64,000 nucleotides of DNA from Arthrobacter antibioticus (GTDB taxonomy: Bacteria; Actinomycetota; Actinomycetes; Actinomycetales; Micrococcaceae): assembly GCF_030063205.1 (NCBI RefSeq), contig NZ_JASISQ010000001.1, positions 609,152-673,151 of the forward strand, read 5' to 3'. Under the pieces are notes generated by a model. That model was not told the DNA's origin. It worked only from the letters and a program-made list of their open reading frames with translations, and searched no databases. Positions 17,676-58,086 of this stretch are shown here, one piece after another. The stretch's first letter is position 1; the number at the start of each line of letters is the position of its first letter. The position numbers and the translations under genes are program-made.

Positions 17676-17766
17676 GAACACCCCGCAGGAATCGCTACGC
17701 TGGCGAACATACCGAGCACCCCGAGACTGCAGCACACCGGTTCACGAAAGAATTGAAGGAGAAGTC

Positions 17767-38725: not shown

Positions 38726-39330
38726 AATCCCTCACCTCGTTGCCGCAATGTCAACGCCAACCCCACATCATCGCTGCCGGGTCGCTCACGTCCTTGAAGA
38801 TCTGCCACCGTCCACGCCAATCTCAAAACGCGGTCATAACCCCGTGCGCTGAGTACCCCCGTCCCCATCGCCCTGTCCAAAAGCGCTGTGTCATGGCCAC
38901 CCAACCGCAGAGGACCACGCAGCACCCGGCCCGTGAGATCAGCGTTGTGAACCAAGCCCCACTTTTTTAGTCTCTCGCCAGCAATGTCGCGGGCCATCTC
39001 TACCCGTTTTGCCACCTGGGCGCTTGATTCACGCTGTGCAGAATCGGACAGCTGTGAGAGCTGTACCTTATTGACCTGCAGCTGAATGTCCACCCGGTCA
39101 AGCAGAGGACCCGAAAGCCGACCAAAATAGCGCCTACGTGCCATGGGTGTGCATTCGCAATTGATTCCTTTGCCCGTTGCCTTTCCGCAAGGACAGGGGT
39201 TGGCGGCCATGACAAGTTGGAAACGGGCGGGGTAAGATGCCGTTCCGGCGGAGCGATGGAGCACAAGCTCCCCACTTTCCAGAGGCTGCCGCAGTGCATC
39301 CAATACACGTTTATCAAACTCGGGCGCCTC
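38722..39330 (-). pseudogene. comM: ComM (YifB-type AAA ATPase), C-terminal fragment
   Basis: The last 202 codons of comM: EAPEFDKRVLDALRQPLESG, AANPCPCGKATGKG with CxC metal-binding Cys, then LSGPLLDRVDIQLQV and the lid region with a terminal GRERPGSDDVGLAL. ComM is a helicase-like ATPase for branch migration in natural transformation. The fragment begins at the GAG codon of the Walker B motif, where the 17.8-kb element joins. The N-terminal part is at 57137-58086. It lacks Walker A and B, so it cannot hydrolyse ATP. Confidence 0.92.
39326..39330. repeat. Left copy of the 5-bp target duplication of the comM element
   Basis: GCCTC, identical to 57137-57141. Deleting 39331-57136 plus one copy rejoins codons GAT GAG GCG CCC GAG (Asp-Glu-Ala-Pro-Glu) of comM. 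Confidence 0.85.
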
Positions 39331-39371
39331 TACAAATAATATACCTCCCCGTGTTTCCGCGGTTGAGCCGC
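39331..39371. repeat. Left terminal inverted repeat of the comM element
   Basis: Begins TACAAATAATATACC, then GTTTCCG (39353-39359) and GGTTGAGCCGC (39361-39371). The same three blocks occur inverted at 57093-57136. Confidence 0.65.
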
Positions 39372-40003
39372 GTCAGCAGCAATGCTGGCCAAGATCGTTG
39401 TGCTCCTCCGCTATGACCTTAATGGTTGACAGTCTGACGGACCGTAGTGAATCGATATCCAGTCGAGTCCGCATGTCCGACTGAACAAGGAACGAAAACT
39501 TTCGAGGCGAGGTTCGTTGCCCCGAATCCTCGGCTCAATATGTGGGTTTTAGCGCTTCATGCCGGTGTTCTACGAACGCTCAGTGTGTCAGTCCCATAGT
39601 TTGCGGTGTGGTACATCGCATGGGTGCAGGATAACTGTGTGGAGAGTGGAACTGTCCAGCGTGAACTGCTTTAATGTGACGATGCCCTGACCACTTGGAC
39701 TTAGCATTCCAATACCTTCGTCGTTGTACATGAAGACGAACGATTAGTACACCTCAGTCGACCGAAGTACTTACGTTAAGCGTATACATAGTTGGGTACG
39801 ATAGCGCATCTCACAGGCCCCGCTTGGCTCTGTCACGACTTCAACGAGGGATGAAGGTTTTCTGAAAGTCGATGTGCCGCTGGTGAGAGCTGGTGACATT
39901 CGCTGGCGCGCTGTGGCATACACACCTAGCACCAGAGTCTCATCGAGTGGACGGACTCAAGGGGCCGGTACGACTCTGATTGGTTTCCTGTCGGCGAGAT
40001 CAA
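39372..40003. other. Gene-free left arm of the comM element
   Basis: About 630 bp with stops in all frames. I see no gene, RNA fold or IS end. Decayed transposition genes might lie here, but I could not recognise any by translation. Confidence 0.5.
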
Positions 40004-40042
40004 GCGCACCGCTAAAGAGACTGAGGACCCGTAGCGGTGCGC
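40004..40042 (-). terminator. Hairpin downstream of the winged-helix-like gene
   Basis: GCGCACCGCTA (40004-40014) pairs perfectly with TAGCGGTGCGC (40032-40042), 10 bp past the stop of the minus-strand gene at 40053. Confidence 0.65.
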
Positions 40043-40052
40043 ATGACTCTGG

Positions 40053-40997
40053 TTAGCCGAGGGAGGTCATCATTCCTGTGCCCAGAGTGACAAGGGCGTT
40101 CACCAAGCCAGTTGCAGTGCCGGTAACAGCGATGTCTACTACCTTGCTAACGAGCTCCTTCATCTTGCTCTGGCTGGGCACGGGAGCCGCTACCTCTGCC
40201 TCAAGTTGATCAACTAGTTGACCGGCTAGGACTTGCCCATCTTCCGGGAGCCCCAGGAGCGGAACGAGTGACCTGGCGCTTTCAACGAATTGCGTTGTTT
40301 GACTGATCTGCTCGATGGTCAGCGTGTTGGACTGGCTGACATGTGAGCTTCCTGCAGCTACGTTCAACGAATGCGAGTCTTTGATGTTGATGTTGTTGTT
40401 GTGCACGGTTGTTCCTCCATTGCCACTCTGTGCGTTCACAGACTCTCCGCTCTCGACAACTCTGGTGCCCTTGTTTGTGATGTTTGGCCGGGGAATCGGT
40501 CCACCCCACGTTTTAGTTCCCGCGATCAACTCTTCATCATGCAACCAGTTACAAGCACGCTCAAGCTCTGTCTCTGAAAACGGTGTTCCATAGTAGTTTG
40601 CATGGCCACTTTCAAAAAACCGATCGATGACGGGCGAAGAGATACCAGCTAGGTCGCTGTCGTACAGCCAGTGAAGAACCCGGTCTCGCGCAGCCTTCAC
40701 TCGTTCGCGAGGCGAGTCCCTCAATACGCCAAATTCTTCGGCTATGTCGTTGCCAGGCTGAGTCAATACGACTTCATCAATGCCTACGATTGATTTCTCA
40801 AACCAGAGCCAGCCCTTCTCTTGAAGAGTCTCAAAGTCACCCGTCAGTTGTGCAGCATCACGGGTCGTATCTCCTGCATTCTGATAGAACCAGTCAGTTG
40901 AGACTTGATTTCCTTGAGCCCGCTTAGCCAACGCAGCCATTAGCATCAGATGCCGCAGCCCCACCTGTGAGTCGGCCAACACTTGAACATCAACCAT
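40053..40997 (-). CDS. Uncharacterised protein: winged-helix-like N-terminus, Asn/Ser-rich linker, hydrophobic C-terminus
   Basis: 314 aa, no family I can name. Residues 1-165 are helical with winged-helix character (RHLMLMAALAKRAQGNQVST, later a second LERACNWLHDEELI unit). Residues 185-230 are a low-complexity linker with TTVHNNNINIKDSHSLNVAAG, a type of Asn-rich beta linker often seen in bacterial conflict proteins. The last 40 residues (VSKVVDIAVTGTATGLVNAL, then VTLGTGMM) are small and hydrophobic and could enter a membrane. It stands alone at the left end of the element. A sensor-effector protein is a guess from architecture and context. Confidence 0.6.
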   Translation of the reverse strand: MVDVQVLADSQVGLRHLMLMAALAKRAQGNQVSTDWFYQNAGDTTRDAAQLTGDFETLQEKGWLWFEKSIVGIDEVVLTQPGNDIAEEFGVLRDSPRERVKAARDRVLHWLYDSDLAGISSPVIDRFFESGHANYYGTPFSETELERACNWLHDEELIAGTKTWGGPIPRPNITNKGTRVVESGESVNAQSGNGGTTVHNNNINIKDSHSLNVAAGSSHVSQSNTLTIEQISQTTQFVESARSLVPLLGLPEDGQVLAGQLVDQLEAEVAAPVPSQSKMKELVSKVVDIAVTGTATGLVNALVTLGTGMMTSLG

Positions 40998-41236
40998 TTA
41001 GATCCGCACCTGTCCCCTAGACATGAATCGCACTGTTGCGATGCCCTAAGCCTAGACGGAGGCACTGACACTCAAGACTAGAGTCATCTCAGCAGTTGCC
41101 GCCAGCTGGTGGAGGAGCCCGCCAATGTCGGCTTGGGTCATTGGAGCAAAGATGATGGACATGCTCCGACCCTATCCCTATCGGCAGTCACGAAGACTGC
41201 CCCAGATGCGGATCCCTTACCGGGCAGGAAAGGGAT

Positions 41237-41497
41237 TTATGCAAATCCGGCTTCCAAGACCGTCAGGGCACGAAAATAAACAAATTTGCTGACCATTTTC
41301 CCGGACTGAAACCTTTTTTTGGGGGCAGCCAAGGAGAGCCGTTGCTTGAAATACTCGATCATCGCACTCACAAGCGGCTGAGCTTCCGCCCCACGAGCCT
41401 CGTCGTCAAAATCCAAATCTAGACAGAACACCTGACGTACCTCGTATATGTCCGCGACAGGTGCGCACCCTTCCAGCGGAAGCAGCACCCTGAGCAA
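41237..41497 (-). CDS. Small open frame of unknown coding status
   Basis: 86 codons from a TTG, divergent from the large gene at 41554. The product has a mixed acidic and basic composition (FCLDLDFDDEARGAEAQPLV, then FKQRLSLAAPKKRFQSG) and resembles nothing I know. There is no clear ribosome binding site. It may be a fragment of an older gene. Confidence 0.25.
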   Translation of the reverse strand: MLRVLLPLEGCAPVADIYEVRQVFCLDLDFDDEARGAEAQPLVSAMIEYFKQRLSLAAPKKRFQSGKMVSKFVYFRALTVLEAGFA

Positions 41498-41553
41498 GTT
41501 CGTGGCACGCGGTGAAGTCAGGTTCTAGCTGTCAGATAGGGCAGGATAGACGA

Positions 41554-44500
41554 ATGGTTACCCGTATAGAAACCGAGACGTTCATTCGTTTCCAGTTGGA
41601 TCAGCTTGGCGCGCAAAACCGACACCACGAGTTCGAGAACATTTGCTTTCGGATTGCCCAGCGGCGAATCAGCAGCAACATCCTCCCGGCAACCGGACCT
41701 GTCAGCAGCGGCGGGGACCAAGGGCGGGACGGAGAAACGTTCTTCTCTGCCCTGCCCGAAGAACTCCCCAGAGCCGGTGGATTCGTCGGCAGGTCCACTA
41801 CAGAACCCCTAGTCCTTGCCTGCACGATTCAGCGAACCGACCTGAGTTCCAAAGTCAAAGGGGATCTCAAAAAAATCACCTCCCAAGGGCAGCCTGTCGC
41901 CAGGGTCGCCTACTTTCTGACACAAAACCTGCCCGTGAGCACCCGGCACAACCTTCAAGAGTACGCGCGCCAACAGCATGACGTTGATCTTGAGGTCTTT
42001 GACGCAATGGCAATATCAACTCTTTTGGCCGAGCCTGACCTAGTCTGGGTCGCCGAAAAGATGCTCGATCTGCCCTCAAACCTGGTACCGACGAATGCCC
42101 CGGATCTTCCCCAGTGGTACCAAGACCTGCTGCGGCGGATCAGGGAATCTGGTGAACCGCTTACCACCCCGGGCGACTTTGCCGCGGTCAGAACTGGACT
42201 CCGCCACGCTACACAAGACGCTGAGGCCCAGAACGACTTGGCTGAATGGCTTCAATACACGCGCGCCTTCCTAAGTTCAGACCCTGAAAACCTCCAACCC
42301 GCAGACGTACAGATGAAAGCTCGATACGAAATCGTAGTTGCCACTCTTCGCGGGATGGAAACCCTGGCGAATGTGGAAGAGTACATCGATCAGTTCATTG
42401 ACTACGCGGCCGAGAGCTCCGCATCGAGCGACCTTGTCGATGCAAGCGTCCTCATCTCCTATTGGCAAGGAGCCTGGGCGGCTGGGATCGCCACAACCAC
42501 TTCGGAACATCTAATGGCCCAACTACAGCGCATCTTGAATCGTGTCGATGCACTGATAGCTGGCACTGACCGGAGTGTTTACCCGAATGCGACAGCGCAC
42601 CTGCTCGCAGCTCGAGCGCATATCCTGTTCCACCCCGACGTCACCGGCATGACGCGAAATCCAAATGCTCCCGCTAGGACTGCAGATACAGCAGACACGA
42701 CCTTGCAGGAGATCCTCAGTAAGGCGGGATCCGCTGAAGCAGTGAAAATCAGGCTGGACCCGCTGATGATCGCACTCGCAGATCTTGCTGAGCTCCTGCC
42801 CATCGCCCGTACTTTTCCAGTGCAGACAACCTGCGACCTCTTTGAGGCTTACAGCCCAGTTCTTGCAGCACACGAACACTACGAGAAGGTCAGGAATGCA
42901 CTGGATGAGGCGATAGGCTCGATTGAAGGCGACAACGCCGTCGCCGAGCGCTGCAGAAACAGGGCCTTATCCTTTATCAAGTCAGAAAAGCCCCTCCTGG
43001 CTCTCCGGGAGTTTCATAAGGCAAAGATCAACTGGTTCCACGGCGATACGCTTCGTGGCTCAGTTCTGGCTATGCTCATGATCTCCAGCGTTTACTCCAA
43101 CTTGAAGCTCCCCCACGCCGCCAAGAAGTATGCTCTCACTGCCTCCTCTATCGCAATTTCTTCCCCGGATTCAGACGTCATCGATTTGGTCGGCACTAGC
43201 CTGATCCAAGCATTCCAGAATTGCTACTACGCCGGGGCGTGGCTGGACGCCACGGCCTTGAGCCAGCTGGCAATTCAAGCACATGGAATATATGCAGAGG
43301 ATGCCTTCGATCGCGAGAAGCACCCAGATCTAGTCGGCATGGACTTTCACCAGACCATGATCTGCATGGCCGCCAGGAAGTTCAGGCCGGAGCTGGTGGG
43401 AACACTCACAGACCGCCTTGCGGAGACGGACTACGACAAAACGATCTGGCAATTCGTTGACCATTTTGAAGATTCCTTCGCACACGACGAAGTGAGTTTT
43501 ACTAAAGCTTCCGTTGAACAGCTTGGGGGTCGCCCCTATAGCGACACCGGGCCAACGCGTTCATTGAGCTTCTCGGCTCTTGGTACGCACTGGAACATAA
43601 GCTGCCCAAATGACAGAGTATCGGTGCTTGCCGCTGAAAGGTTTGCAGCAGCCGCGCAGATTCTTCTGTGCAAGCTTGCAACGGAGGATCCGGTACTCCT
43701 AGACGAAAGCGTCTCGGTAGAGATCCAACTGGCGGGTTGTGAGTATAAGGAACGAGTGGAGTTCGCACCTGACAACCATCAGCTAAAGGCCCTAGTTACT
43801 CTTCTGCCCTACACGGACCAGTCAGATGCCGAAGTGCTGGAACTTGAGATTGTAGGAGCCGTAGGGCTGCTACTCATGAGGCTGAGCGCTCTATCGCAGG
43901 AAGAAGTCCTAGAGATGCTTGACAGGGCATTTGCCAGGGGTTTTCTCAACCAAATCTCGTTCGGTCGGCCATACGACGAAACAGCAGGACTGCTCGACGA
44001 AGCCCACTACCGCCAGACGGCTAAAGTCGGTCGCCAAGTCATCGGCACCTGCGACTACGCGCCACTCACAAGCATCTCTTTGGAGCAGCCGAAATCCTAC
44101 GGCCCTGGTTTCTCGGAGAGTGAATGGCATCAGATGATCAAAGAACGCTACGAGGTCTCAACTCTCGTAGGATTCACATTGGCCCGAATACTCCGAAACA
44201 ACACATGCCGCAGGATTCTTTCCGAACTCCGGGAAGAGGGCTGGCTGGATTGGCACTTGCTTCTGGCAATATTCAATGTCGCTACCAACTACCGCATACG
44301 GCGTGAGCTCGGCCCAGACAGTTCATCACCCCAGATGCTCCGACAAACTGCTCCGGATTTGGTCCATAAAGGTGAAACGCCAGAATCTCCAAACATCCCC
44401 CTCCACCACTTCTCTAAGGAAAACCTGCGTCAAGCCTTTGACCTCGCGACGCTAAGTGTGGCCAAGCGTCTAGGGCTCCACATCGACCGTGACACTCCAA

Positions 44501-44589
44501 ACATCATCGGAGTTCGGCAATTACTAGATCGAAGATATGGGTTCTTGCAAGACGTCCCGCACACGGACCTTCTGGCATCCCAGTCGTAG
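41554..44589 (+). CDS. Large protein with PD-(D/E)xK-like nuclease N-terminus and helical-repeat body
   Basis: 1011 aa from the ATG at 41554, which follows GCAGGATAGACG; a GTG at 41512 is also open. Residues 10-140 look like a restriction-endonuclease fold: HHEFENICFRIAQRR (helix with Glu), TGPVSSGGDQGRDGETFF (acidic motif), LVLACTIQRTDLSSKVKGDL (core strand with Gln in the second acidic position, then Lys). From about 200 to 1011 the chain is nearly all helix pairs of TPR-like spacing (ALREFHKAKINWF, AAKKYALTASSIA, LDATALSQLAIQAHGIYAED). Defence proteins often join a nuclease to repeats that sense a trigger. The exact family is not recognised, and catalytic competence is unproven because the usual E-x-K is not obvious. 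Confidence 0.65.
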   Translation: MVTRIETETFIRFQLDQLGAQNRHHEFENICFRIAQRRISSNILPATGPVSSGGDQGRDGETFFSALPEELPRAGGFVGRSTTEPLVLACTIQRTDLSSKVKGDLKKITSQGQPVARVAYFLTQNLPVSTRHNLQEYARQQHDVDLEVFDAMAISTLLAEPDLVWVAEKMLDLPSNLVPTNAPDLPQWYQDLLRRIRESGEPLTTPGDFAAVRTGLRHATQDAEAQNDLAEWLQYTRAFLSSDPENLQPADVQMKARYEIVVATLRGMETLANVEEYIDQFIDYAAESSASSDLVDASVLISYWQGAWAAGIATTTSEHLMAQLQRILNRVDALIAGTDRSVYPNATAHLLAARAHILFHPDVTGMTRNPNAPARTADTADTTLQEILSKAGSAEAVKIRLDPLMIALADLAELLPIARTFPVQTTCDLFEAYSPVLAAHEHYEKVRNALDEAIGSIEGDNAVAERCRNRALSFIKSEKPLLALREFHKAKINWFHGDTLRGSVLAMLMISSVYSNLKLPHAAKKYALTASSIAISSPDSDVIDLVGTSLIQAFQNCYYAGAWLDATALSQLAIQAHGIYAEDAFDREKHPDLVGMDFHQTMICMAARKFRPELVGTLTDRLAETDYDKTIWQFVDHFEDSFAHDEVSFTKASVEQLGGRPYSDTGPTRSLSFSALGTHWNISCPNDRVSVLAAERFAAAAQILLCKLATEDPVLLDESVSVEIQLAGCEYKERVEFAPDNHQLKALVTLLPYTDQSDAEVLELEIVGAVGLLLMRLSALSQEEVLEMLDRAFARGFLNQISFGRPYDETAGLLDEAHYRQTAKVGRQVIGTCDYAPLTSISLEQPKSYGPGFSESEWHQMIKERYEVSTLVGFTLARILRNNTCRRILSELREEGWLDWHLLLAIFNVATNYRIRRELGPDSSSPQMLRQTAPDLVHKGETPESPNIPLHHFSKENLRQAFDLATLSVAKRLGLHIDRDTPNIIGVRQLLDRRYGFLQDVPHTDLLASQS

Positions 44590-44879
44590 TCAGAGGTCCT
44601 AGCGCAGTGCGGGCATTCGATGGGTTCCAAGTCGTCAGAGTTGACGGTAACCCGCACTGTTAGATCAGGCCTGTCCCCCGCCCGGCGGTGAGGGAGGGAC
44701 GGGACTGCCCCAGGCGCCGGCGACAGTCGTGCCGTAAGCTGGTCGCTTATCGGCGCGTGTGCGGAAAACTTCGGAAATTTTCGAGATTGCGTGTTTCTGC
44801 AGTTGCCGTATCCCCCTGTACTTGCCCGGGGGGAAAGCCCGGTGAAGGGGTGAAAGGTGCACTCTAAACCATCTCCGGA

Positions 44880-45436
44880 CTCTTTATTGGATACGCCCGC
44901 GTATCCAATAAAGACCAAGAGCTCACGGCCTGAAAGAACTCCTTTCTTACCCTAGGAGTGTCGTCAGGCAAGACCTTCACCGACACGAACAGGACGCGGC
45001 CTGGTCTTAGATAAGCACTGGCCGCCTGTCGGGGCGGAGACACCCTGGTCGTGACCAAGCTCGACCACCCAGCCCTGTCACGGCGCGATGCAAAGGACAT
45101 CGTCGATGGACTCACCCGCCGCGAGGTCAGGCCGAGCATCGGCGGCTCGGTCCACGACCCACCGATCCCGTGGCAGGCTTCTTTTCAATGTTCTGGCTAT
45201 GGTTGCCGAGTTTGAAGCAGACCTGATCCGCGCACGCACTCGTTAAGGGATGGCTGTCGCCAAAGCAAAGTGCAAGCTGCGCGTGAAGCAGCCCAAGATC
45301 TCCAAGGCACAGGAAGCACACTTGCCTTCAGTGCACCGGGCGGGTGAGCGCAACTCTTGAAATTACTGAGCCTTTCGGTGAGGCCCTTTCCACCATCCAG
45401 CGTGCAATCAAACGCGGCGGCCAAGCCGCAGCTTAG
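44880..45436 (+). pseudogene. Serine resolvase/invertase remnant
   Basis: Read across frames, the plus strand gives FIGYARVSNKDQELTA (catalytic Ser in ARVS), GGDTLVVTKLDHPALSRRDA, then NVLAMVAEFEADLIRARTR and a C-terminal helix-turn-helix TIQRAIKRGGQAAA. Frameshifts and stops (for example after QELTA and after GMAVAKAK) break it. It belongs with Tn3-type transposon resolvases. No matching TnpA is present. The first 34 bases of the frame are a perfect palindrome (44881-44914). Confidence 0.8.
44881..44914. repeat. 34-bp perfect palindrome in the resolvase remnant
   Basis: Arms TCTTTATTGGATACGC (44881-44896) and GCGTATCCAATAAAGA (44899-44914) flank CC. Because of it, both strands encode the resolvase opening FIGYA-VSNK. 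Confidence 0.9.
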
Positions 45437-45599
45437 CGCGGCAGGATTGCACCGTCTACGCCGAGATTAACGACGGAACGTTATTAGCTCTAATTACCGG
45501 CCAGGTCTTCCCCAGTCCCCGGTTCAGCGAAGGTCCGAGGAAGCTGCGGTCTGACGAGACAATGATGACACCGCATGTTCGCCGATGTCCGCACCCGAT

Positions 45600-46345
45600 T
45601 AGCGAGGCGATTCGTCGTCATGAAGCTACTGACGTAGGCTGTGGAGTGTTTGCAATTTGGTGCCTCGGCACCGGGGTCCAGGCGGCGCTCACTGACCTCA
45701 AAACACTCGGACGAACACTGAGCCGGCGAGCTGAAGACGTGGTGGCATAATTCGACCGGCCAGGGACCTCCAATAGCCCTACTGAAGCGATTCAATGCCG
45801 ACATCGGCATTGAATTGCTTATGCCGATGCCGATGCCTGGGTTATCCCGACATCGGCAATTTTGGGCTGGCTTTGGGCCTTGGCCATTGGAGACGTGTCG
45901 GCATAATCAACATGCCTCGAGGCATATGGACGTCGCGCATACGGAGTGCAAAGCAGCAGTTGGCGTACAAGCCATCCCAGATCACGGACATCAAAGTTCA
46001 TTGCCGGATTCATACATTCCAGCCACAAACACACGATAGTAAGCGCGTCCACTGTCAAAACCGGTTCCTGAATGAGTAGTGGGCAACTCATGACCACCCT
46101 GCTTCGCCTTTGAGAGAGACAGGGTTTCCCAGGGCACTTATGCCGACAAGTAGAGGGCCCAACCGTCCAAGAACATGCTATTTCTCAACATTGTAGGCAT
46201 AACCCAAACATCGGCATAAGCGATCAATGGCCGGCTGGAACACCTTCGAGGATCCGCCCTCGGCTTCCGGAACCTCACCAACTATGTCGCCAGATCGCTC
46301 CTGGAATCCGGCGGATTCAGATCGAAACTACACTCTGGATTCTGA
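45600..46345 (+). pseudogene. ISL3-family transposase remnant 1, interrupted by a small element
   Basis: Two pieces of one gene: 45600-45791 (ISEAIRRHEATDVGCG, LGRTLSRRAEDVVA, FDRPGTSNSPTEAI) and 46220-46345 (NGRLEHLRGSALGFRNLTNY, VARSLLESGGFRSKLHSGF). They join in frame when 45792-46219 is removed with one GCGAT. A TAA before FDRPG and missing N-terminal domains mark it as dead even before the insertion. No inverted repeats of this IS are visible. Confidence 0.75.
45792..46219. mobile_element. 428-bp non-autonomous element in the ISL3 remnant
   Basis: Flanked by a 5-bp duplication GCGAT (45787-45791 and 46220-46224). Its left end opens with a near-perfect 32-nt palindrome around ATGCCGACATCGGCAT, followed by TTATGCCGATG...TGGGTTAT; the right end, read inward, is TTATGCCGATGTTTGGGTTA. 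It has no coding capacity beyond short frames. A Tn3-like or MITE-type element fits the 5-bp duplication; the parent is unknown. Confidence 0.65.
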
Positions 46346-46349
46346 AGAG

Positions 46350-46720
46350 CCAGGAAACTCAAGGCAGCGTGGGAAGTGAAGGAACAAGTCCGGGTCTTGT
46401 TGCGAACTGGCTCCTTAGAAGATGCCGAGCTGGCCAAAGAACACCTCGAAGAGTTGGTACAAGCATCGAAGCAACCGGAGACGACTAGGCTGTGGCGTAC
46501 CATTTGCCGGTGGTGGAACGAAATCGAGGTTCTCATAGTCACCGGTGCTAACACCGGAAAAGTCGAAGCGAACAACACCAGCATCAAGCACATCAAACGA
46601 ACAGCACGTGGCTACCGCAACCCCAACAACTACACATCAGTTATTCTCTTGAGAAGTGCCGCCCGAACAACGGCATGACACTCACCCGGGAATCCGAATC
46701 CCCACGAACCACCAAGAGCC
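46350..46720 (+). mobile_element. ISL3-family element remnant 2 (3' end of transposase and right inverted repeat)
   Basis: Codes for the last 109 residues of a transposase (KEQVRVLLRTGSLEDAEL, RWWNEIEVLIVTGANTGKVE, IKHIKRTARGYRNPNNYTS), stop at 46676-46678. The right inverted repeat ends in CACGAACCACCAAGAGCC at 46720. The protein fragment is close to the C-terminus of the element at 48095-49539, but the two differ enough to be separate arrivals. The 5' part has been lost. Confidence 0.8.
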
Positions 46721-46908
46721 AGTTTGAGACAATAAGCAAGACCACTCAATCGGTCGCCGAAATATCAACCCAACCTGCCACTAAATCTTGGGCAGACCCC
46801 AGCTATCCGGCAAAATGCTCAAGAACATCAGCGTTGGCGCTTGCAATGCTGGAGGGCGCCTCAACATCATCCACGAAGAATCTCTGCGCGGAACACCTAC
46901 CCAGCCGC

Positions 46909-47814
46909 CTAGTCGCCATCCAGAGGTCTGAAATTCCTCGTCGGGTAGCCAGCGATGTATAAATTCTTCATTTGATGGTGCCTAGATTCTAAAATTACGA
47001 AATTATGATACGAGGCAAGCCACTCATACTTACCTGCGACCGCCGTACCCTTGAATGCTTGGAGCATACTGATGATATGATCTCGATGTTTTTCTAGACC
47101 CGAAATAGGGCTTAGTGCACCTTTTATATTTTCATCTTCGAATACAAGCGGAAGGTAATTAACGAACACTTTCTTGTCATCGTCGACAAGCAGAATATCC
47201 GAAAACACTGATTCATTCGGCTTGTCATCAGTTATCGCTTCTTTTGCAATCTTGACCGCTTCAGAATCAAGTAGGATACGGGGAACTTCAGCTTGCGTTT
47301 CTTCGAGTAAAACTGCTGAAAGGTGCGCTGGTCCGGTAACAAAATTTCCATCAGCATACGCATTACCTATTGCAATTCCACCCCGTAGAACGCGACCGGT
47401 AATGGCGAGATTTAATTGGTAGATCGCCGCGCAAATAGTTTGGGCAAGGAGGGTAGGATTTGGTCCAGTAAAAGTATCTTCCCCTATAGGTTCTACGACC
47501 ACGACATTATCACTGAAATATAGCGACCGCTGGGAATCTTGGTCATTCGTTGCCTCACTGTGAAGAATGTCACGGGTGCGATCGTATACATCAATGTCCT
47601 GGCGAAGCATTTCGTTATCATAATTAGACAGACGTGCGCTTGTGCCCAGTTCATCAAGGTACATTACGCAAGAACGCCGTAAAATAGGTAGCCCATCATC
47701 GTCTGCGTATAATTTCCTTTCTGTTTTCAGCTTGAGTTTGCGATTCTCAAGCCGTTCCTCCCATTTTAATCTAAAATTCTCATTTGATATATCAAAATTA
47801 AAATCCATTGCCAT
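46909..47814 (-). CDS. Uncharacterised protein with class III nucleotidyl cyclase-like pattern
   Basis: 301 aa in visibly AT-richer DNA than its neighbours. The order of motifs is that of a class III cyclase fold: a first strand with Asp (CVMYLDELGTS, about residue 50), a second acidic strand (LYFSDNVVVVEP, about 100), and a conserved turn with RVLRGGIAIGNAYADGNFVTG followed by GPAHLSAVLLEE and VPRILLD. The two Asp would bind metal. Cyclases of this sort make the signal in Pycsar defence systems, whose effectors include TIR proteins; a TIR gene lies upstream on the same strand beyond an IS. The assignment is by pattern only, and substrate specificity cannot be predicted. No adjacent effector is intact. 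Confidence 0.45.
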   Translation of the reverse strand: MAMDFNFDISNENFRLKWEERLENRKLKLKTERKLYADDDGLPILRRSCVMYLDELGTSARLSNYDNEMLRQDIDVYDRTRDILHSEATNDQDSQRSLYFSDNVVVVEPIGEDTFTGPNPTLLAQTICAAIYQLNLAITGRVLRGGIAIGNAYADGNFVTGPAHLSAVLLEETQAEVPRILLDSEAVKIAKEAITDDKPNESVFSDILLVDDDKKVFVNYLPLVFEDENIKGALSPISGLEKHRDHIISMLQAFKGTAVAGKYEWLASYHNFVILESRHHQMKNLYIAGYPTRNFRPLDGD

Positions 47815-48086: not shown

Positions 48087-48094
48087 GGTAATCC

Positions 48095-49539: not shown

Positions 49540-49824
49540 GGTAATCCACCAACATGTTCTGCCCCATTACTAATGACACGTAAATATTACAAGCTCCCCC
49601 AGGGTGTTGCAATTATACCCCTATGCGGAGTGGGCTGAGTCACAGATCATACGTCTAGACCGGCTCATCGCAAACGACGGTGTATAGATGCTCGCTGCTC
49701 CGTGGAGAACTGATTGAGCAAAGATTTGCTGCCATGATCGCCCCACGGACCCGGCTGTGGGCAAAGATTCCATAGGAATCTTCCCGATCCACTTAGAGCT
49801 CTTCGGCGGGAAGTATGCCCTCGG

Positions 49825-50666
49825 TCAGCTCTGACCGCTCGGCTCTTGCCATGGGAGTTCCTCGACAACCGCCAGAGTGATGACTTCGGCGTCGATGCTC
49901 TCGGCCTATTCGGTCCGGTGCCCTGGCTTGGTCAGCTCCAAGCTGGCCAAGTGCTTCTGCAGCCGCTTGGACATCGGAAGGAACGTGCCAAGGGTGAGAC
50001 CGCCCGAGAGAAATGCACCGACTACCGGGATTGCCTTCGCGATGCCGCTGGCAAAGAGCTTCTTGACCATACTCACACCAAGATGGGCAGCAAGCCTTTT
50101 CACGATCGGGAAGATGATCCCCTTGTGAGTGCCTGCTGCGGTAGTCTCCTGGCAACATTAGTGGCGATCATGCCCGCAACTCTTGCAACGCCACCCTGAG
50201 CGATCTGCACGCCGAACATCACACCGACGAACCGGATCAGCATGCTCTCCGTAGCCTCATCAATATCTTCGCCCTCATCGGCGAACAAATCAGGCCAACT
50301 GTAGATATAGGCAAGCTTCTGGCCAATTCGAAGCGTATGCCCCATATATTGCGCGAGGTCAGCTGGCACAGTGCCAAGCACTGCCAGACCGCCGGGGATA
50401 CCTGCGAGGGTCGACAGGCCAGTGACCTTACTCGCCTCATAAGCGATCGAGTTGCTTGCGACCTCAGCGATGACCTTGAGCGGGATGCCCGCTGCTGCTG
50501 GACTGTTAGCGATTGCCCTCGCTTTCTGATCCGCAGTGCAGTGGCGCTTGAGCGCTGTACGGAGGTAGGCGGCCATGCTGATCCTCAATCCCGGCAGCTT
50601 CGCCGCAGCTTCCAGCACCTGAGTGAAATTCGAGCCAGTCTTCTAGACATCTTGTGTTTCGGTCAT
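49825..50666 (-). pseudogene. EcsC-like membrane-associated protein, decayed
   Basis: Minus strand: MTETQDV, a TAG, then LEAAAKLPGLRISMAAYL, GIPGGLAVLGTVPADLAQYM, HTLRIGQKLAYIYSWPDLF and MLIRFVGVMFGVQIA. A one-base deletion near 50115-50130 shifts the frame; the continuation reads IIFPIVKRLAAHLGVSMVKK and IPVVGAFLSGGLTLGTFLPM. A second TAG lies before AESIDAEVITLAVVEELPW. I relate it to EcsC-type proteins by the glycine-rich hydrophobic hairpins; this is tentative. Three lesions make it inactive unless the shift is a sequencing error and suppression occurs. It is next to the TIR gene on the same strand and may once have been in its operon. Confidence 0.6.
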
Positions 50667-50760
50667 GGGTAGATCATATCGGTGGGATCCGAACTACACG
50701 CTCAAAATCTGTAAGCCAGATAACAATTGTCTATACACGCAATTTTTCGTGGTCACCGAG

Positions 50761-51705
50761 CTACAGTTTAGGTCTGACTTGGAAATCAATCGAATGATTA
50801 GGATGATTCCGGGCAATAGAATTTACGACCAAACGTCTAATATTGTCGGGGAGCTCAATATCAGACTTGAACGTAACCGCGTCGTCCATCATCGAGACCC
50901 CGAGATCTCCCCATTCACCCAAATGGGAGACATCCTCCATGATTCCCATAATTTTCGCGTTGAATCCGTCACGATTCTTGCGGATCTGATCTTTACCCGA
51001 AAGGGCCAATTGATCATCCGAGTGAGGGCTCGTCATCCATTTTCGAAGACTGCGCGCAAATACGGGATCAGAACCTACCAGGTCAAATACGTCACGGTGT
51101 GAAACTTTCTGGTGCTGAAGTTGCAATTCATCGCCAAGGGAAGCTTCGACGGCTTTAACGAGACCCAAGATCTCATCAAGCTTCTCGTCAGGTGATTTTG
51201 GCGGCAAAACAGGCCCCACAGTTCCGCCAGCCTTGACTTCCGTGACGGCGGTCTCTACGTCCGGCCAAGCCGAAGCAATACGCTTACTTAGGGTTCCCTC
51301 TTTCAGATTTGGGCCCAATTCGTTCAGCGATGTCATCAACTCAGTGAGGCCCTCGAAGGTAGCCATCTTGCATTGAAATATATTCATTGGACTGTTAACC
51401 TCGTCAACATCACCAAAATCGACTAGAAAAACGCCCATCCTCTTCCGCTTGTCCGCCACTTGACGCGACAGTGCGCCAGCTTCGTAGTTAATCCACTGTT
51501 CAGTCTGATTAGATCGCGTGAGGCAAATTATGCCAAAGTCCGTATCGTTCAACTCCGCGTCGATCGCTTCGAGCCCTCGTGAGCCCGCTTGAATTTCCTG
51601 GCTGATGAATGTATCTACAACTGGGTCGAAAATTTCCCTTACAGCCGCAGCGACGGCGCTCCCGACACCACGACTGTTTTTTGACCAGCTTACAAATACT
51701 TTCAA
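50761..51705 (-). CDS. TIR-domain protein 1
   Basis: 314 aa. Residues 1-150 are a bacterial TIR domain: KVFVSWSKNSRGVG, FGIICLTRSNQTEQWINYEA and GALSR, where the Glu of YEAGAL is the expected NADase catalytic residue. The C-terminal half (from about 180) is helical, begins EKLDEILGLVKAVEASLG and matches nothing I know; it may sense the trigger or oligomerise. The start is a TTG with GGGGAG six bases upstream, a pattern shared by the second TIR gene. TIR effectors deplete NAD during phage infection. The small disrupted frame at 51773-54782 ends 67 bp upstream. Confidence 0.82.
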   Translation of the reverse strand: MKVFVSWSKNSRGVGSAVAAAVREIFDPVVDTFISQEIQAGSRGLEAIDAELNDTDFGIICLTRSNQTEQWINYEAGALSRQVADKRKRMGVFLVDFGDVDEVNSPMNIFQCKMATFEGLTELMTSLNELGPNLKEGTLSKRIASAWPDVETAVTEVKAGGTVGPVLPPKSPDEKLDEILGLVKAVEASLGDELQLQHQKVSHRDVFDLVGSDPVFARSLRKWMTSPHSDDQLALSGKDQIRKNRDGFNAKIMGIMEDVSHLGEWGDLGVSMMDDAVTFKSDIELPDNIRRLVVNSIARNHPNHSIDFQVRPKL

Positions 51706-51807
51706 GACGCTCCCCTAGCTCACGATGATGATCAGGTAAGCCTACCAACGCCGACAGGACACGGGCGCCTAGTCAGGCTTCGGGATCTACCCTGACTGGG
51801 TCATGCC

Positions 51808-53256
51808 GGCTCTTCGCGGTTGGTGGTGAATCCGGGGTTGGTGTCGTAGCAAGTTAGGGGCCCGTGGCCCTGCTGAGATGGATGTGTCTAGCATTCTTCC
51901 CAGGTCAGGAACCACGAGCCTTGAATCAGCCTACCCAGTCGTGCCCGAATGAGGCCACGACACTCTTCAATCTCCCCGATTACCAGGTCATTTCCGTCAT
52001 CAATGACGACGACGCCGGCATCCGTGTAGTGACCGTCGCTGCGGACTTCCCGCAAGCATGCCCCGCCTGCGCTGTCCTGTCGGTGCGGGTGCATTCGCGC
52101 CGAATCCAGCGGGTCCGGGACATCCTTGTCGCTGGCCCTGTCCGGCTCCTGTGGTTCAAGCGCCGGTTCTTCTGCAACGAGGCTGCCTGCGTCCGGAAGA
52201 CCTTTGCTGAATCCACCCCGCAGGTGCCGCGCTTCGCCCGTTCCACCGTACGGTTGAAGGAAACCCTCATGGATGCCGTCATCAGCTCCGGCCGGGCCGC
52301 GTCCGAGGTTGCCATCGCGTTTGGGGTGTCCTGGTGGTTGGTCAACACGGCCGTGGTCGCCGCCGCCATGGCGCTGCCTTCCGTGGACCTGCTGGCCCCG
52401 ACACGGCTGGGCATCGATGAACACCGCTACCGCAGTGTGCGGTGGTTCAAGAACGAGACCACGGGCAAGTGGTCCCGGTATGAGCCATGGATGTCAACGA
52501 TCGTAGACGTCGACACCGGCCAGGTGTTGGGCATCGTTGACGGCCGCGACAGCCGGGGCGTGGGTGCCTGGCTCAAGGCCCGGCCCGCCATTTGGCTTTC
52601 CTGTATTGAGACCGTCGGCATCGACCCGTCAGCGGCGTTCCGCAAGGCCCTGCGCGAGAACCTGCCCGATGCCGCCGTTTCCGTGGATCACTTCCATTTG
52701 GTGCAGCTCGGAAATGACATGCTCACCAAGGTCCGCCAACGCGTGTCCCGTGAGCAGAACGGGCGCCGTGGCCTGAAAACGGACAAGGCCTGGGCGCACC
52801 GACAGCTGCTGCGCGGCTACGACACGCTCTCGGAGAACGGCAAGAAACGCTTAGACGAGGTCTTTGCCACTGACGACCCGACGCAAGAACTCGTCGCCGC
52901 TTGGGGTGTCAAGGAAGCCCTGCGGCTGCTGCTTTCGGCCACCAACCCGGCCAACGTGGACCAGCGGAAAGCGTTCTTTGAACGACAAGTGAAAGCGGCA
53001 GCCATGAAAGAAACCGACCGGCTGCTGACGGCGGTGTCAACAAATGGTGGCCGGAGATCCAAACCCTGCTCGCCACCCGCGTCACCACAGCGAAGGTCGA
53101 GGCAGCCAACACCATGATCAAAAACATCAAAAGGATCGCCCGCGGGTTCCGCAACCCAACCAACTACCAATCACGTATCCTACTAAGAAGTGCCGCCCGG
53201 ACGGTGGCATGAATTCATCTTAGCGGGCTGGTATTCACCACGAAACGCGAAGAGCC
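51808..53256 (+). mobile_element. Complete ISL3-family insertion sequence B
   Basis: 1449 bp with inverted repeats beginning GGCTCTTCGCG and ending GTGGTGAAT at both ends. The 8-bp duplication GTCATGCC is at 51800-51807 and 53257-53264. It is a different but related element to copy A. Confidence 0.93.
51864..53212 (+). pseudogene. ISL3-family transposase with late frameshift
   Basis: The frame runs from 51864 with CPACAVLSVRVHSRRI (zinc motif), GIDEHRYRSVRWF, GIDPSAAFRKAL and SVDHFHLVQL. At about 53035 (after DRLLTAVS) it shifts; the correct continuation is KWWPEIQTLLATRVTTAKVE, NTMIKNIKRIARGFRNPTN, ending at 53212. Without the shift the protein would be about 445 aa. The last catalytic acidic residue lies in the shifted part. 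Confidence 0.88.
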
Positions 53257-53421
53257 GTCATGCCCCTCAGCGGACTCCAGATAGCGCTGCATGAGTCGGT
53301 CGTAGGTAAGACGGTCCATCTTACTCATGTTGCCTCCACCGTGCTCTAAAGAGAACCGTGCAGCGTCTACGGCCGGCGCACTCCAGGCCTTGTGCTCTGG
53401 TCTCTCGCCCATGCAATCCGG

Positions 53422-54718
53422 CAGGGTGATTGCAAAGTCGTTTGTGCGAATTGTGCGTCTTAAAATATGAGATGGATCCACCCTGGCTTTTAATCAGAGA
53501 GAACCCCTCTTAAGCATGTGATTGTTCAGTCCCACATGTTGCCCAGGAGTTCTCGTATGCCATCGTCTTATCTTGCGGCGTTCATCGACGAATTCGCAAC
53601 GAAGGAGCCTGTGGGGATTGACCCAGGTAAGGTGCTGGCCGGGTTGTGTGAGCTGCCGGATCCGCGGAAGAAGGGCGGGATCCGGTATCCTTTCGCGCAT
53701 CTGCTGGTCATCATAGTCTGCTCAGTTCTGTCGGGGGCGAAGTCGTTGGTAGAAATGGCTGAATGGGCCACCGATACGGCACGGGTTCCTCTTGCTGGGC
53801 TCGGTATTCGTGCACCGCACGCAACCACATTGGCCAGGGTTCTGCAGCGTCTAGATGCTGATGCCCTGGACCGACTGGCCGGGGCATGGGCCCAATCCAT
53901 GACCGAGGTGACGGCCATCGCCATTGACGGGAAGGAAGTCCGTGGCGCCAAGAACGGCGGCGGCACCAAAGTCCACCTCCTGGCCGGCATCGACCAAGCT
54001 ACCGGGGCCGTGCTCGTGCAACAGAACGTGTCGGCGAAGCATAATGAGATCACCTATTTCAAGCCGTTGCTGGAAGAGATCGCGGCCATTGACGGCATGG
54101 TCGTCACTGCCGATGCGTTGCATACCCAGCGTGAGCACGCCCAGTACCTCCATTTCCGTGGCGCCCACTATGTGCTGACTGTGAAAGGCAACCAGCCCAA
54201 ACTTCACGAGCAATTGTGCGCCCTGCCATGGAAGCAGGTCCGTGCCGGGCCCAAGGCCCACACAACCGCCAACGGGCGTGAAATCCAGCGGACCGTCAAA
54301 TGCGTAACCGTGGCAGCCGGGATCAACTTCCCCCACGCCGCTCAAGGCGCCCAAATCACCCGTAAGTCGCGGCCACTCGGGACCAGGAAGTGGTCAACCG
54401 AGACCGTCTACGTTGTCACTTCTCTAACTCCAGCTCAAGGAAAGCCAGAGCTCATCGGCAACTTGATCCACGGCCATTGGGGCATCGAAAACGGTTTGCA
54501 CTACCGCCGGGACGTGACCTGGCGGGAAGACTCCAGCCAGATCCGAAAAGACAACGCACCCCGAGTCGTGGCCTCTCTCAGGATATCGCTATCACGATTA
54601 TGTCTCTGGCAGGCGAACGCAACCACGCCAAAGCCACCCGAGCCCCCACAACTACCCGCACCGCGCACTCTAACTCGCTGGCCTAGATATCAGCTAAACG
54701 GACTTTGCAATCGCCCTG
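53422..54718 (+). mobile_element. Complete ISAs1-family insertion sequence
   Basis: 1297 bp. Inverted repeats begin CAGGGTGATTGCAAAGTC on the left and CAGGGCGATTGCAAAGTC on the right. The 10-bp duplication TGCAATCCGG is at 53412-53421 and 54719-54728, fitting the 8-10 bp of ISAs1. Confidence 0.93.
53557..54686 (+). pseudogene. ISAs1-family transposase with late frameshift
   Basis: From ATG 53557: PDPRKKGGIRYPFAHLL, IAIDGKEVRGAKNGGGTKVH (first catalytic Asp), VVTADALHTQREHA (second) and HWGIENGLHYRRDVTWRED (Glu). About 54585, after RVVASLR, the frame shifts; the normal C-terminus IAITIMSLAGERNHAKATRA continues in another frame to 54686. All three catalytic acids precede the shift, so partial activity is conceivable. 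Confidence 0.85.
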
Positions 54719-54931
54719 TGCAATCCGGCCTAGCTTTTCTGCTGCGTAGGAGTTTCAACAAAAAGCCCTCCCCAACTTTCACACATGTATTGATACAATT
54801 ACAGCAGATATTTGAGTCTTTTAATCTCATTACTACGTGAACGGGTCGGCTGCTTTAAGCGGAGTTCCAAAGCGCATCCAATATAAAGCCGCAGTGTCCC
54901 ATATCTCTAAGTTAGATCGTGGCTGGACAAC

Positions 54932-55825
54932 TTAGTCATCTGGCCCATCTTCCGAATATGTCAACATATAAGAGAAATCAATCAAATATGGGACTTGGGC
55001 GTTGATTTCTTCGGCCGCTGCCTTGACCTCGTCAGGAATTCGATGGGCAGAATAGACCACATAGTGTCGCTTGTCAATTCTCTTGACGTGGGCACGGTCG
55101 ATGCTTCCCCGAGCTATCAGGCTGTCGTTGATGATCTTTTCAAACCGACTCTCGCGAGTTCCGGAAGATTCCCTGCCGCGACCCTCGCCGCCCTCATTAT
55201 GGTCATGGTCCAGAATTTGCTCCACACCAGTGAGCGTAGCCCTTGAACTCTGATCGAGCTTAAGTACTAGCTGTTGAATGTCCTCGAGCCGAAGGTCCGT
55301 CGAGGTCATCTCAGGTTTATATGCGTAATCATTCGTCTCGATCCGCTTGAATATAGCTTCCATCTTGCTCCAATGGTTCTCGAAGGACTCATCGAGAACA
55401 TGCTGCGCAAGTGGGTACGGGCGTGCGTTGTTCAGAGAAATGACCAGTTTCTTGAATTCAGACTTACGATCGTCGTGTTTCTTGAACTGCCGAAGCTGGA
55501 AATTCTTGAGCGGGCTAGTAAGGTCTGCTAAGTCTAGGTCGAGAAGAATCGGCACAACTTTATTTACTACGTCGATGGACTTCCACAGAGCTCCGGCTTC
55601 GTAGTTGATCCACGAACGAGCCTGGTTTTCAGAAGTCGTTACGATGATGCCGTAGGCAGTGTCCGAAAGCTGGGCGTGGATCTCTGCCATTGACAACGTC
55701 CCCGAGTCGATATCCATGTCGCTGACCCAGGGCCGTAAATCCTGCAGCACAAAGGGGAGCCAACCACGCAACTGATTCGCAAAGTCTTTAGATTTCGCTC
55801 CAGACCAGCTGATAAAGACCTTCAA
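54932..55825 (-). CDS. TIR-domain protein 2
   Basis: 297 aa. The TIR domain fills residues 1-150: KVFISWSGAKSKDFANQL, RPWVSDMDIDSG, YGIIVTTSENQARSWINYEA and GALWK, with the catalytic Glu in YEAGAL. The rest has a helical stretch (LEDIQQLVLKLDQSSRATL), an acidic/Arg linker (EGGEGRGRESSGTRESR) and a final alpha/beta segment (HYVVYSAHRIPDEVKAAAEE). It shares the domain order with TIR protein 1, but the C-termini differ. The start is TTG after GGGAG. It lies 214 bp downstream of the AlbA-type gene on the same strand. Confidence 0.85.
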   Translation of the reverse strand: MKVFISWSGAKSKDFANQLRGWLPFVLQDLRPWVSDMDIDSGTLSMAEIHAQLSDTAYGIIVTTSENQARSWINYEAGALWKSIDVVNKVVPILLDLDLADLTSPLKNFQLRQFKKHDDRKSEFKKLVISLNNARPYPLAQHVLDESFENHWSKMEAIFKRIETNDYAYKPEMTSTDLRLEDIQQLVLKLDQSSRATLTGVEQILDHDHNEGGEGRGRESSGTRESRFEKIINDSLIARGSIDRAHVKRIDKRHYVVYSAHRIPDEVKAAAEEINAQVPYLIDFSYMLTYSEDGPDD

Positions 55826-56039
55826 GACACTCCCTTACTCCAACTAGATACCCAAGCAAGCCTACCAACCCATGCCATCACCCAAGCCCATTTACGTTTC
55901 AAATGTCATCAGAAGATGAACCCTGCCGCTCAGCACACTCCTGGACGCCCTGCATGAGTATGTAGCACGTATGATTGTGAACCGACCTCACCATTCTTGC
56001 AAGTCCTGTTAGCCAGCAAATCGTGTCTAGGCCGAACCG

Positions 56040-57071
56040 CTAATCGAGTCCGTGATGCGAGAAATTCCAGTTCCCAAGAATTTCCTGATAAGCGCTTTTC
56101 AGATTGTCTCCATATTTGTTCTTCATCTCATATGGGCCAACCCTGCCCATCTGCGCAGTTGCTATGAGAGGCCTGACCGCACCTAGGACGTGGAGTTCTA
56201 GATCAAATCCTAGTTGCGACGCATCCCGAAAAAATCTTTTGTCTTCGGGACTAACAGCGGGCAGCTTCAATGCAAGAATCGCTGATCCGGGACCTGTCAA
56301 GGTAATCCCGTCACGAGTTACGTGTACTCCATACTCTTGATGAACTTCGGTCGGCTTAGTTGCATGCGGAGTGACACTAACATTGAACGTCCTGTTATCA
56401 ACATGAACCTTGCCTTGCATTCCGTGCGTAGGAATTGTCGTAAGTACATTACCGGAATGCTCGAAATAGACTCTAAGGTTCCCCTGGCACCTAATGCCCT
56501 CTACTTGGCCATGACCACCGCCCATTTCTTCCCGAGGAGCTCGGACGCTCGGATAGTACTCGGCATAGAAATCTCCACTCAAGGTCACCGCAGGCGGCAC
56601 TTTGATCGTTGGGATCAAGAGTCGAAGTAGCTCGTCGCGCTTGGCTGACCTGGTGCCGGTTCCTTCCCTCATTGGAACTTCGAGAATCGGGGTCTTTGTC
56701 TTCACAACGTAGGGTGAGCGGTCAGAAGCGAAGGCTATGGCTATCACAAACTCACCGTCAGCGCCGATCGGCACATTCACTTGCCGAATCATTTCAGGCG
56801 GGGTCTGGTCAAATTTTGGCGTGATTTGAGCCCACCAATCAAGGACATCTGTCCCGGAAAGATCGTGGATAGCACCGTTCGTCTCGTCGATTCCGATGAT
56901 GTAAATGACGGGATCGCCACCCGCACGGTTCAGGCTTCCAGCAAGCTGACGTGCTTTGTCGCCCTGCGGCCATTCTCGCTTGCACTCGATGAAATCATCC
57001 TCAACCTTTTGGCCAGATTGGATCCGATCTACGGCAAAAATTACTTTGGTCTCAAGGTCGATAACGCGCAT
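56040..57071 (-). CDS. AlbA_2/Schlafen-type N-terminal domain protein
   Basis: 343 aa. Residues 20-120 carry EDDFIECKREWPQGDKARQ, LAGSLNRAGGDPVIYIIGID and a following Gly-rich turn, the pattern of the Schlafen AlbA_2 (divergent AAA_4) domain. The C-terminal 200 residues are beta-rich with no recognised motif. AlbA_2 proteins recur in defence islands and as regulators. The ATG at 57071 lies 65 bp inside the right end of the element, and the residual comM frame overlaps its first 20 bases. Confidence 0.7.
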   Translation of the reverse strand: MRVIDLETKVIFAVDRIQSGQKVEDDFIECKREWPQGDKARQLAGSLNRAGGDPVIYIIGIDETNGAIHDLSGTDVLDWWAQITPKFDQTPPEMIRQVNVPIGADGEFVIAIAFASDRSPYVVKTKTPILEVPMREGTGTRSAKRDELLRLLIPTIKVPPAVTLSGDFYAEYYPSVRAPREEMGGGHGQVEGIRCQGNLRVYFEHSGNVLTTIPTHGMQGKVHVDNRTFNVSVTPHATKPTEVHQEYGVHVTRDGITLTGPGSAILALKLPAVSPEDKRFFRDASQLGFDLELHVLGAVRPLIATAQMGRVGPYEMKNKYGDNLKSAYQEILGNWNFSHHGLD

Positions 57072-57092
57072 CTGCCAACCTTACCGAAACGG

Positions 57093-57136
57093 GCGGCTGA
57101 ACTTGACGGAAACTTGAGGAGTCTTGTACATTTTTA
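57093..57136. repeat. Right terminal inverted repeat of the comM element
   Basis: Reading toward the end: GCGGCTGAAC (57093-57102), CGGAAAC (57107-57113), GAGGAG, then CTTGTACATTTTTA. It mirrors the left end at 39331-39371. Confidence 0.65.
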
Positions 57137-58086
57137 GCCTCATCTAAGAAGAGCACGCCTCGATGAGCGCGGGTAGCGGCACCAGGACGCGGTATGCCGC
57201 TACCCCCACCAATAATGGCTGCTGTGCTAGCGGAATGATGCGGCCGCTCATAAGGCGGGCGCCGTATAAGCCCAACAAGTCCAGATGCTCTATGTTCAAG
57301 GGAATGAATGGCAGTGACTTCCATGGCCTGGGCATCGTTGAGATCCGGTAGTAGTCCGGGCAGCCGCTCGGCCAGCATGGTTTTTCCTGAGCCGGGTGGT
57401 CCTATCATCATCAGATGGTGCCCACCCGCGGCCGCGATCTCCAACGCAAGACGCGCCACTGTTTGGCCTGCTACCTCGGACAAATCCACTTTCTCGTGGT
57501 TTGCCACTACACCGCTTACCGGCTGAGCGGTTTCAATGCCGGCCGCAGTGACGCCTTCAAGGCCTATGAGTTCTTGGGGGTTGGCGTCAAAGTCAGCGAC
57601 CACCTGTGCCAAGCAGTCGTAGCCGCGAACCTTGGCTCCACTTACTAGCTGTGCTTCAGCGAGATTGGCACCTGCCACAACAAATTCCTTGTACCCGGCA
57701 GACAACGCGGCAAGAACTGCGGGCAGGACTCCCCGGACCGCCCGCAACCGTCCATCAAGTCCGAGTTCAGCAAGGAAGACAGTGCTGCCGGTTCGCCGAA
57801 CATCGCCCGCAGCGTTGAGGGCAGCCATAACAATGGCCAAGTCAAAGCCAGAGCCCTTTTTAGGTAGAGAAGCTGGTACTAAATTGACAGTTATTTTACG
57901 CCGACTCAATGGAATCCCAGAGTTTTGCGCCGCCGATCGAATCCGCTCCCGTGCTTCTGATAATGAGGCATCTGGGAGTCCTAGGAGAATAAAGTTGGGC
58001 AGGGTCTGGCCAATGTCGGCTTCAACTTCTATGACGTGGCCATTTAAACCAACCAGGGCCACGGCAAGGGCACGCCCCATCCCCAT
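57137..58086 (-). pseudogene. comM: ComM (YifB-type AAA ATPase), N-terminal fragment
   Basis: The first 316 codons of comM. The Lon-protease-like N-terminal domain (LLGLPDASLSEARERIRSA, NLVPASLPKKGSGFDLA) and Walker A (MIGPPGSGKTMLAERLPGLL) are intact. The fragment ends within Walker B (RGVLFLDEA), where the element begins. The frame then runs 28 codons into the element and stops at 57052. Without Walker B, sensor and lid it should not work as an ATPase. TGATGGGG couples its start to the yraN stop. Confidence 0.93.

Follow-up and report, generated by a model that had tools for sequence, protein, structure and literature searches.

How did a 17.8-kb element come to lie inside comM, a gene of DNA uptake, in Arthrobacter antibioticus, and which class of recombinase placed it there? 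The element occupies positions 39331–57136 (17,806 bp) of a 64,000-nucleotide stretch of the genome (NCBI RefSeq assembly GCF_030063205.1, contig NZ_JASISQ010000001.1, positions 609,152–673,151; hereafter the window) and is flanked on both sides by the 5-bp sequence GCCTC, at 39326–39330 and 57137–57141. A preliminary description based on the letters alone had considered either a non-autonomous or decayed element or the work of an unfamiliar recombinase. The evidence assembled here indicates that the insert is probably a genomic island of a family integrated by large serine recombinases (LSRs) at the codons of the comM Walker B motif, the integrase end of which has been lost.

The boundaries of the insertion are exact. 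When the flanks are joined and one GCCTC is removed, 517 codons and a stop are obtained and the motif LFLDEAPEF is restored, as the preliminary description had proposed. The joined open reading frame and the intact comM of G019, a genome labelled as the same species, place the 5′ part of the gene (the N-terminal ~317 codons) at 57137–58086 and the 3′ part at 38722–39330, both on the minus strand. In the sense of comM the repeat reads GAGGC, with the first copy in the crossover region at 57137–57141 (GA at 57141–57140) and the second at 39326–39330, again on the minus strand. G019 provides the empty site: its comM is whole and holds exactly one GCCTC, the joined window flanks align with it over 5,189 bp at 99.69% identity and free of gaps, and its protein is 100% identical to the rebuilt ComM. 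Therefore, the element was inserted in one lineage or precisely lost from the other. The preliminary description was right on both junctions, the 5-bp repeat and the single-unit nature of the insert. In the genus, a single open comM frame spanning at least residues 1–500 was found in 21 of the 22 other genomes, the exception (G022) carrying a different insert at codon ~84. Interruption of the Walker B motif is expected to abolish activity in AAA+ ATPases, and because comM is broken at this motif its function has likely been lost, which agrees with the earlier view. Immediately downstream of comM follows another gene of DNA uptake, dprA-like by eye and with an open frame (37454–38725).

The same position in comM is occupied in other members of the taxonomic family. 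We searched 395 family genomes with the ComM protein and re-examined 40 of them, most picked for a second or weak match; because of this choice, the counts of comM breaks are lower bounds. Breaks were seen at codons ~84, ~235 and ~317. The junction at codon ~317 was read in nine of the ten genomes taken (G212, G277, G298, G378, G160, G165, G309, G390 and G194), with G090 left out because its contig ends there, and comM pieces ending near this codon are also present in G392, G111, G076 and G159, which lay outside the junction reading. An LSR gene stands beside the junction in five of the nine genomes, on the comM-C side in G212, G277 and G378 and on the comM-N side in G298 and G160. The LSRs of the first three are 52–61% identical and form one lineage; those of the latter two are 91% identical to each other and form a second lineage, only ~25% like the first. 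Searches with the five LSR queries against parts of G165, G194, G309 and G390 gave nothing better than E 0.12. Strong matches in G194 to an over-long G212 query proved to be comM read backwards rather than an LSR, and LSR-only queries were used instead.

The state of comM itself varies among these genomes. In G390 the same comM stretch is unbroken on a separate contig, and a complete comM stands beside the element in G165 and G194. In G165 (L045:831-1841, 17661-18671), the beginning of comM is present in a second copy (1,011 bp, 99.5% identity) across the element, where it runs into the remainder of the gene, so that comM is restored behind the island. In G194 (G194:C1:784865-818202; L053, L054), the whole comM adjoins a decayed second comM split by a 30-kb element that bears a TIR gene.

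A shared crossover point emerges from the junctions. Read by eye, the bases common to the left and right attachment sites (attL and attR) are TGAG in G298, CGA in G277, GAGGCA in G212, GACGAGGCG in G378 and about GACGA in G309, and the dinucleotide GA stands at the same place in all five stretches. In G298, G277, G212 and G378, each arm mirrors the other around GA for ~25 bp (by eye), the form expected of an LSR attP (PMC3783163), and a relative on a phage contig (L239) has the same form around GA. The junctions of these genomes fit a crossover at GA, and the window GAGGC starts at this very GA. A fixed attB used by LSR-encoding relatives is thus seen as the same codon and the same GA in nine genomes. 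Accordingly, the earlier reading of the 5 bp as a target duplication made by transposition has become less likely, the same codon being the junction in nine other genomes.

Other possible LSR sites in comM-like genes were also encountered. A phage-contig LSR relative (L242) adjoins a sequence that, by eye, resembles the Walker B motif of another comM-like ATPase, with GA at the same position. In G022 (L033:13346-15031), an LSR gene reads directly out of the comM start at codon ~84, with phage-like genes behind it, and breaks at this codon were also found in G243, G389, G067, G315, G059, L218 and L221. There seems to be a second LSR attachment site in comM at codon ~84.

If the window element belongs to this family, its ends should resemble attP arms. 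We built a weight matrix from 15 arms, none of them from the window (14 arms, with G390 dropped, for scans of GA sites); true arms score 1.9–17.2 bits when left out of the matrix. The arm at the right end (57115–57139, minus strand; GGCTAAAAATGTACAAGACTCCTCA counted from GA) scores 11.7 bits at offset 0; none of the other 25 offsets tried exceeds 3.8 bits. Measured over window positions, this corresponds to P 9e-5; P is 6e-4 when the three leading bases, which are shared with comM, are excluded, and 2e-3 against shuffles of the bases left after these three. With 14 arms the score is 11.5 bits (P 3.7e-5 among 54,195 GA sites of other family DNA), and it stays at 7.5–13.2 bits when any one of the five arm groups is dropped. 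By its sequence alone, the right end therefore resembles an LSR attP half-site.

The content of the element points in the same direction as its position. Four of the nine junction genomes (G378, G165, G194 and G212) have TIR homologues at 0.3–2.1 kb from the comM-N junction, and two of the four (G212 and G378) also carry an LSR gene; the corresponding distance to the start of the closest TIR gene of the window is 1.3 kb. Homologues of a 314-aa protein of the element occur in six of 284 other genomes, twice inside comM elements (G212 and G194). Of 389 other genomes, three (G377, G013 and G083) encode a homologue of the 343-aa protein at the right end. In G377 and G013 its gene stands directly behind a 29–31 bp half-site of the comM Walker B region, which is followed by GA and by an arm resembling attP (9.1 and 7.0 bits, respectively). 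Both genomes hold a whole comM elsewhere, away from the half-site. Compared by eye with the comM of the same genome, the G377 half-site has 7 differences in 29 bases, an indication that the half-site arrived with the island. Conserved sequence was expected upstream of the half-site, and none was found in G013, G377 and G083. Among plasmids, two records encode homologues of the right-end gene (27% and 35% identity), and none was confirmed in viral_contigs. Through these shared features the window element is linked to the LSR family in its content and not in its position alone. Separately, two viral contigs (L289 and L290) encode relatives (33–35%) of the window TIR protein.

Because integrase-carrying elements use the same comM base pairs, the insert is most likely a stripped-down relative of these elements rather than a new transposon. 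In the mechanism we favour, an LSR would have recombined the element site-specifically into the Walker B codons of comM, with the attB crossover at the GA within LFLDEA, and the 5-bp repeat would be the shared crossover sequence instead of a transposition duplication. The window copy would have kept its right half-site and TIR defence cargo and has no integrase gene. Its left end, which would correspond to the integrase side of the G212, G277 and G378 elements, has probably been lost or replaced, because the half-site on this side shows no normal attP arm. The element would now be non-autonomous, and its movement would need an integrase from another element. The first option of the preliminary description, a non-autonomous or decayed element, thereby stands; the recombinase would not be unfamiliar, as its second option had it, but of the familiar LSR class, either lost or acting from outside. 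An LSR of the window genome itself (G000:C17:45921-46775; L238) was set aside: it is not at comM, its flanks show no link and, by eye, it adjoins tad-type genes.

Several observations weigh against this explanation. The element encodes no LSR found by tblastn with the LSR queries (best E 1.1 and 0.44), and its left arm (39331–39355, plus strand) is not an attP half-site: it scores -16.7 bits as a P arm at offset 0 and at best 4.2 bits, at +8, among 26 offsets. With the left end scoring so low, the two ends together do not make up a normal attP. As high a score as that of the right arm is reached at 3 of the 7,861 GA sites of the window, the right arm included, and the comM-N arm of G309 fits weakly (3.9 bits, P 0.003). 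Around the 30 order-level LSR relatives examined (of 49 places), codon 317 of comM was within the 1.5-kb flank in none; in three of these loci the flank does contain comM, at codon ~84 in two of them and near the C-terminus in the third. G083, which carries the same right-end gene, has no corresponding site (-11.4 bits). The terminal 7-mers of the element, TACAAAT and TAAAAAT, are alike at six of seven bases right at the 5-bp repeat, and the C-rich motifs of both ends are symmetric about the middle of GAGGC and not about GA. A DDE transposon with a 5-bp duplication would show such symmetry. Finally, DDE and tyrosine-recombinase elements also use the Walker B motif elsewhere (PMC10293859), and position alone is therefore no proof of an LSR.

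The nature of the left end allows some further statements. With gaps allowed it fits a P arm at P 0.013, and compared with P arms its C-rich motif is closer to the GA core by 4–5 bp. In LSR sites, attB and attP half-sites differ by a shift of 5 bp (PMC3783163). Scored as a comM arm, the left end reaches -21.0 bits, with P 0.012 (offset 0) and P 0.004 (+1). In spacing and sequence it is thus closer, if weakly, to the comM type, and an attB-like left end may be taken as a lead only.

A variant of the LSR explanation, which we regard as possible though doubtful, is that at least two LSR elements were stacked at the comM attB and eroded, so that the two ends derive from different elements. The ends of the window element are indeed of different type, and G309 likewise has unlike arms, on separate contigs. 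Moreover, a possible attP-like arm lies inside the element (45640–45669, minus strand, 13.9 bits), in the same orientation as the right arm and beside the relic of a small serine recombinase (resolvase) at 45015–45360 on the plus strand. The relic is broken into pieces in different frames, two of three matching PF00239 (E 4.5e-5 and 0.017). However, a site at 37012, outside the element, scores 12.5 bits; the internal site may therefore be due to chance and is treated as a lead only.

The main rival to LSR integration is a decayed or non-autonomous Tn7-like element of the Tn6022/AbaR kind, which would have entered the Walker B codons by cut-and-paste, made the 5-bp duplication and then lost its genes; we consider it unlikely. 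The exact repeat and the empty site would suit it, as would the similar terminal 7-mers and the motifs symmetric about the repeat. Further, the comM Walker B motif is the target of the Tn6022 TnsF, and both Tn6022 and the tyrosine-recombinase element Tsy reach comM through TnsF at this motif (PMC10293859). In Acinetobacter, comM is disrupted by AbaR and also by other insertion sequences (ISs) and defence systems (PMC11472951). TniQ was detected in 53 of the 395 family genomes; of the 23 genus genomes, 7 carry it (one below the cut-off). On the other hand, no TniQ match was found in the window genome G000 (9 of 15 candidates scored) or in G019 (9 of 13 scored), and the right arm agrees with LSR attP sites at the offset that was predicted. 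Nineteen element frames screened against Pfam gave no match to Tns/Tni proteins, with TnsA/B/C and TnsF not searched genome-wide, and the earlier remark that no transposase for the whole element is recognisable is borne out.

The ends read TACAAAT.../...ATTTTTA and, as already noticed in the preliminary description, are not TGT...ACA. The three inverted blocks described there are real, yet their best inverted alignment has a modest score of 19, which is reached by 0.75% of shuffles of the first 60 bp, 3.5% for 100 bp, 8.5% for 150 bp and up to 12% for 200 bp. DNA searches of 23 genus genomes found no relative with the same ends beyond two weak, short matches (27 and 36–37 bp, E 0.007 and 0.004), and the left 722 bp found no relative among plasmids and phages. 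A BLAST comparison of the ends with 12 TniQ-bearing regions from 12 genomes gave nothing better than E 0.39 and no common ends. A pattern scan of genome_contigs returned 112 stretches, none of which had a comM match by tblastn and none of which was actinobacterial among the 80 titles listed. In viral_contigs, one end pattern had zero matches, and a 19-bp intergenic match to the other in a viral contig looks like chance. A transposon family with GCGGCT/CGGAAAC ends, which the preliminary description had suggested, has thus become less likely, as no relative bearing these ends appeared in the genus, plasmid, phage or genome_contigs searches.

A Tsy-like element (tyrosine recombinase, HTH protein and TnsF) whose genes have gone is very improbable: Tsy is known to insert into the comM Walker B motif (PMC10293859) and a short inverted core, ATTTGTA-GAGGC-TAAAAAT, flanks the window repeat, but the 19 screened frames hold no Pfam match to a tyrosine recombinase or GIY-YIG protein (TnsF was not searched by itself), the same source reports no inverted repeats for Tsy, and the comM flanks are by eye unlike the core arms.

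The cargo of the element is mixed. From the right end inwards, it comprises the 343-aa protein (56040–57071, minus strand; AlbA_2/Schlafen-like by eye only, with no Pfam match), a TIR-domain protein (54932–55825, minus; PADLOC TIR-TM), an ISAs1-family IS (53422–54718, plus) defined by inverted repeats at 53422–53439 and 54701–54718, the transposase frame of which (53518–54840) extends beyond the right repeat, and an ISL3-family IS (51798–53266, plus). These are followed by a second TIR-domain protein (50761–51705, minus; PADLOC TIR-TM, Pfam TIR_2 below the cut-off), a PADLOC PDC-S30 candidate defence protein (50100–50618, minus) that covers positions 16–182 of 268 and is probably truncated, and a further ISL3-family IS (48093–49541, plus) with its transposase in two frames, which abut within 48144–49505. 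Next come a 301-aa protein (46909–47814, minus; cyclase-like by eye only, with no family match above the cut-off), an ISL3-family fragment (46360–46725, plus) and, beyond the resolvase relic, a 1025-aa protein without a family match (41512–44589, plus) and the 314-aa protein (40053–40997, minus), with a weak PADLOC match to PDC-M14B. The earlier view that candidate anti-phage genes dominate the cargo holds in part: PADLOC, run on eight element proteins, named four of them (two TIR-TM, one PDC-S30 piece and one weak PDC-M14B), and IS DNA accounts for roughly one quarter of its length (4.6 of 17.8 kb, by coordinates). A role of the TIR genes in phage defence is inferred from the PADLOC family names. 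For two cargo proteins, structures predicted from a single sequence each reached mean pLDDT values of 30.6 and 32.4 and were not used.

If LSR integration is the correct explanation, LSR elements and their defence satellites share one landing site, a conserved ATPase motif within a gene of DNA uptake, and an exact repeat of 5 bp can pass for a transposon duplication. Mobile defence genes of these bacteria could then be sought at this site, which would also allow one to ask whether islands benefit from inactivating transformation. A broader proposal, which we put forward tentatively and hold to be rather less than probable, is that comM in this actinobacterial family hosts a class of integrase-less defence satellites. 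Their attachment site would be a hybrid, half comM and half attP, and LSR elements that use the same attB would move them in trans. The Walker B motif would then be a widely used docking site to which three unrelated recombinase classes have come by convergence, namely DDE with TnsF, tyrosine and at least two LSR lineages. No report of LSR insertion in comM/yifB was found in the literature searched, most subscription papers lying outside it; PMC3146451, which came up as a source on comM and serine recombinases, was set aside, since 'comm.' there stands for personal communication.

Among known systems, the element shares with the prophages and islands integrated by LSRs of the phiC31, Bxb1 and A118 type a fixed attB in a coding gene, a dinucleotide core and a 25-bp attP-like right half-site, and the same site is used by LSR-bearing elements in relatives. 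It differs from them in its missing integrase gene, its abnormal left half-site and a cargo that resembles a defence island and not a phage. With Tn6022/AbaR it has in common the gene and motif, the 5-bp repeat, the disruption of comM and the island cargo, whereas its ends are not TGT...ACA, it has no Tns/Tni match and its position is the LSR core of relatives. Tsy shares the comM Walker B target, but the window element has no tyrosine recombinase match and the relatives at this site encode LSRs. Integrative elements can leave behind cis-mobilizable elements (CIMEs). Although the left half-site of the window element is no normal att arm and its movement in trans is only proposed, it resembles CIMEs in having kept an att-like half-site after its integrase had gone.

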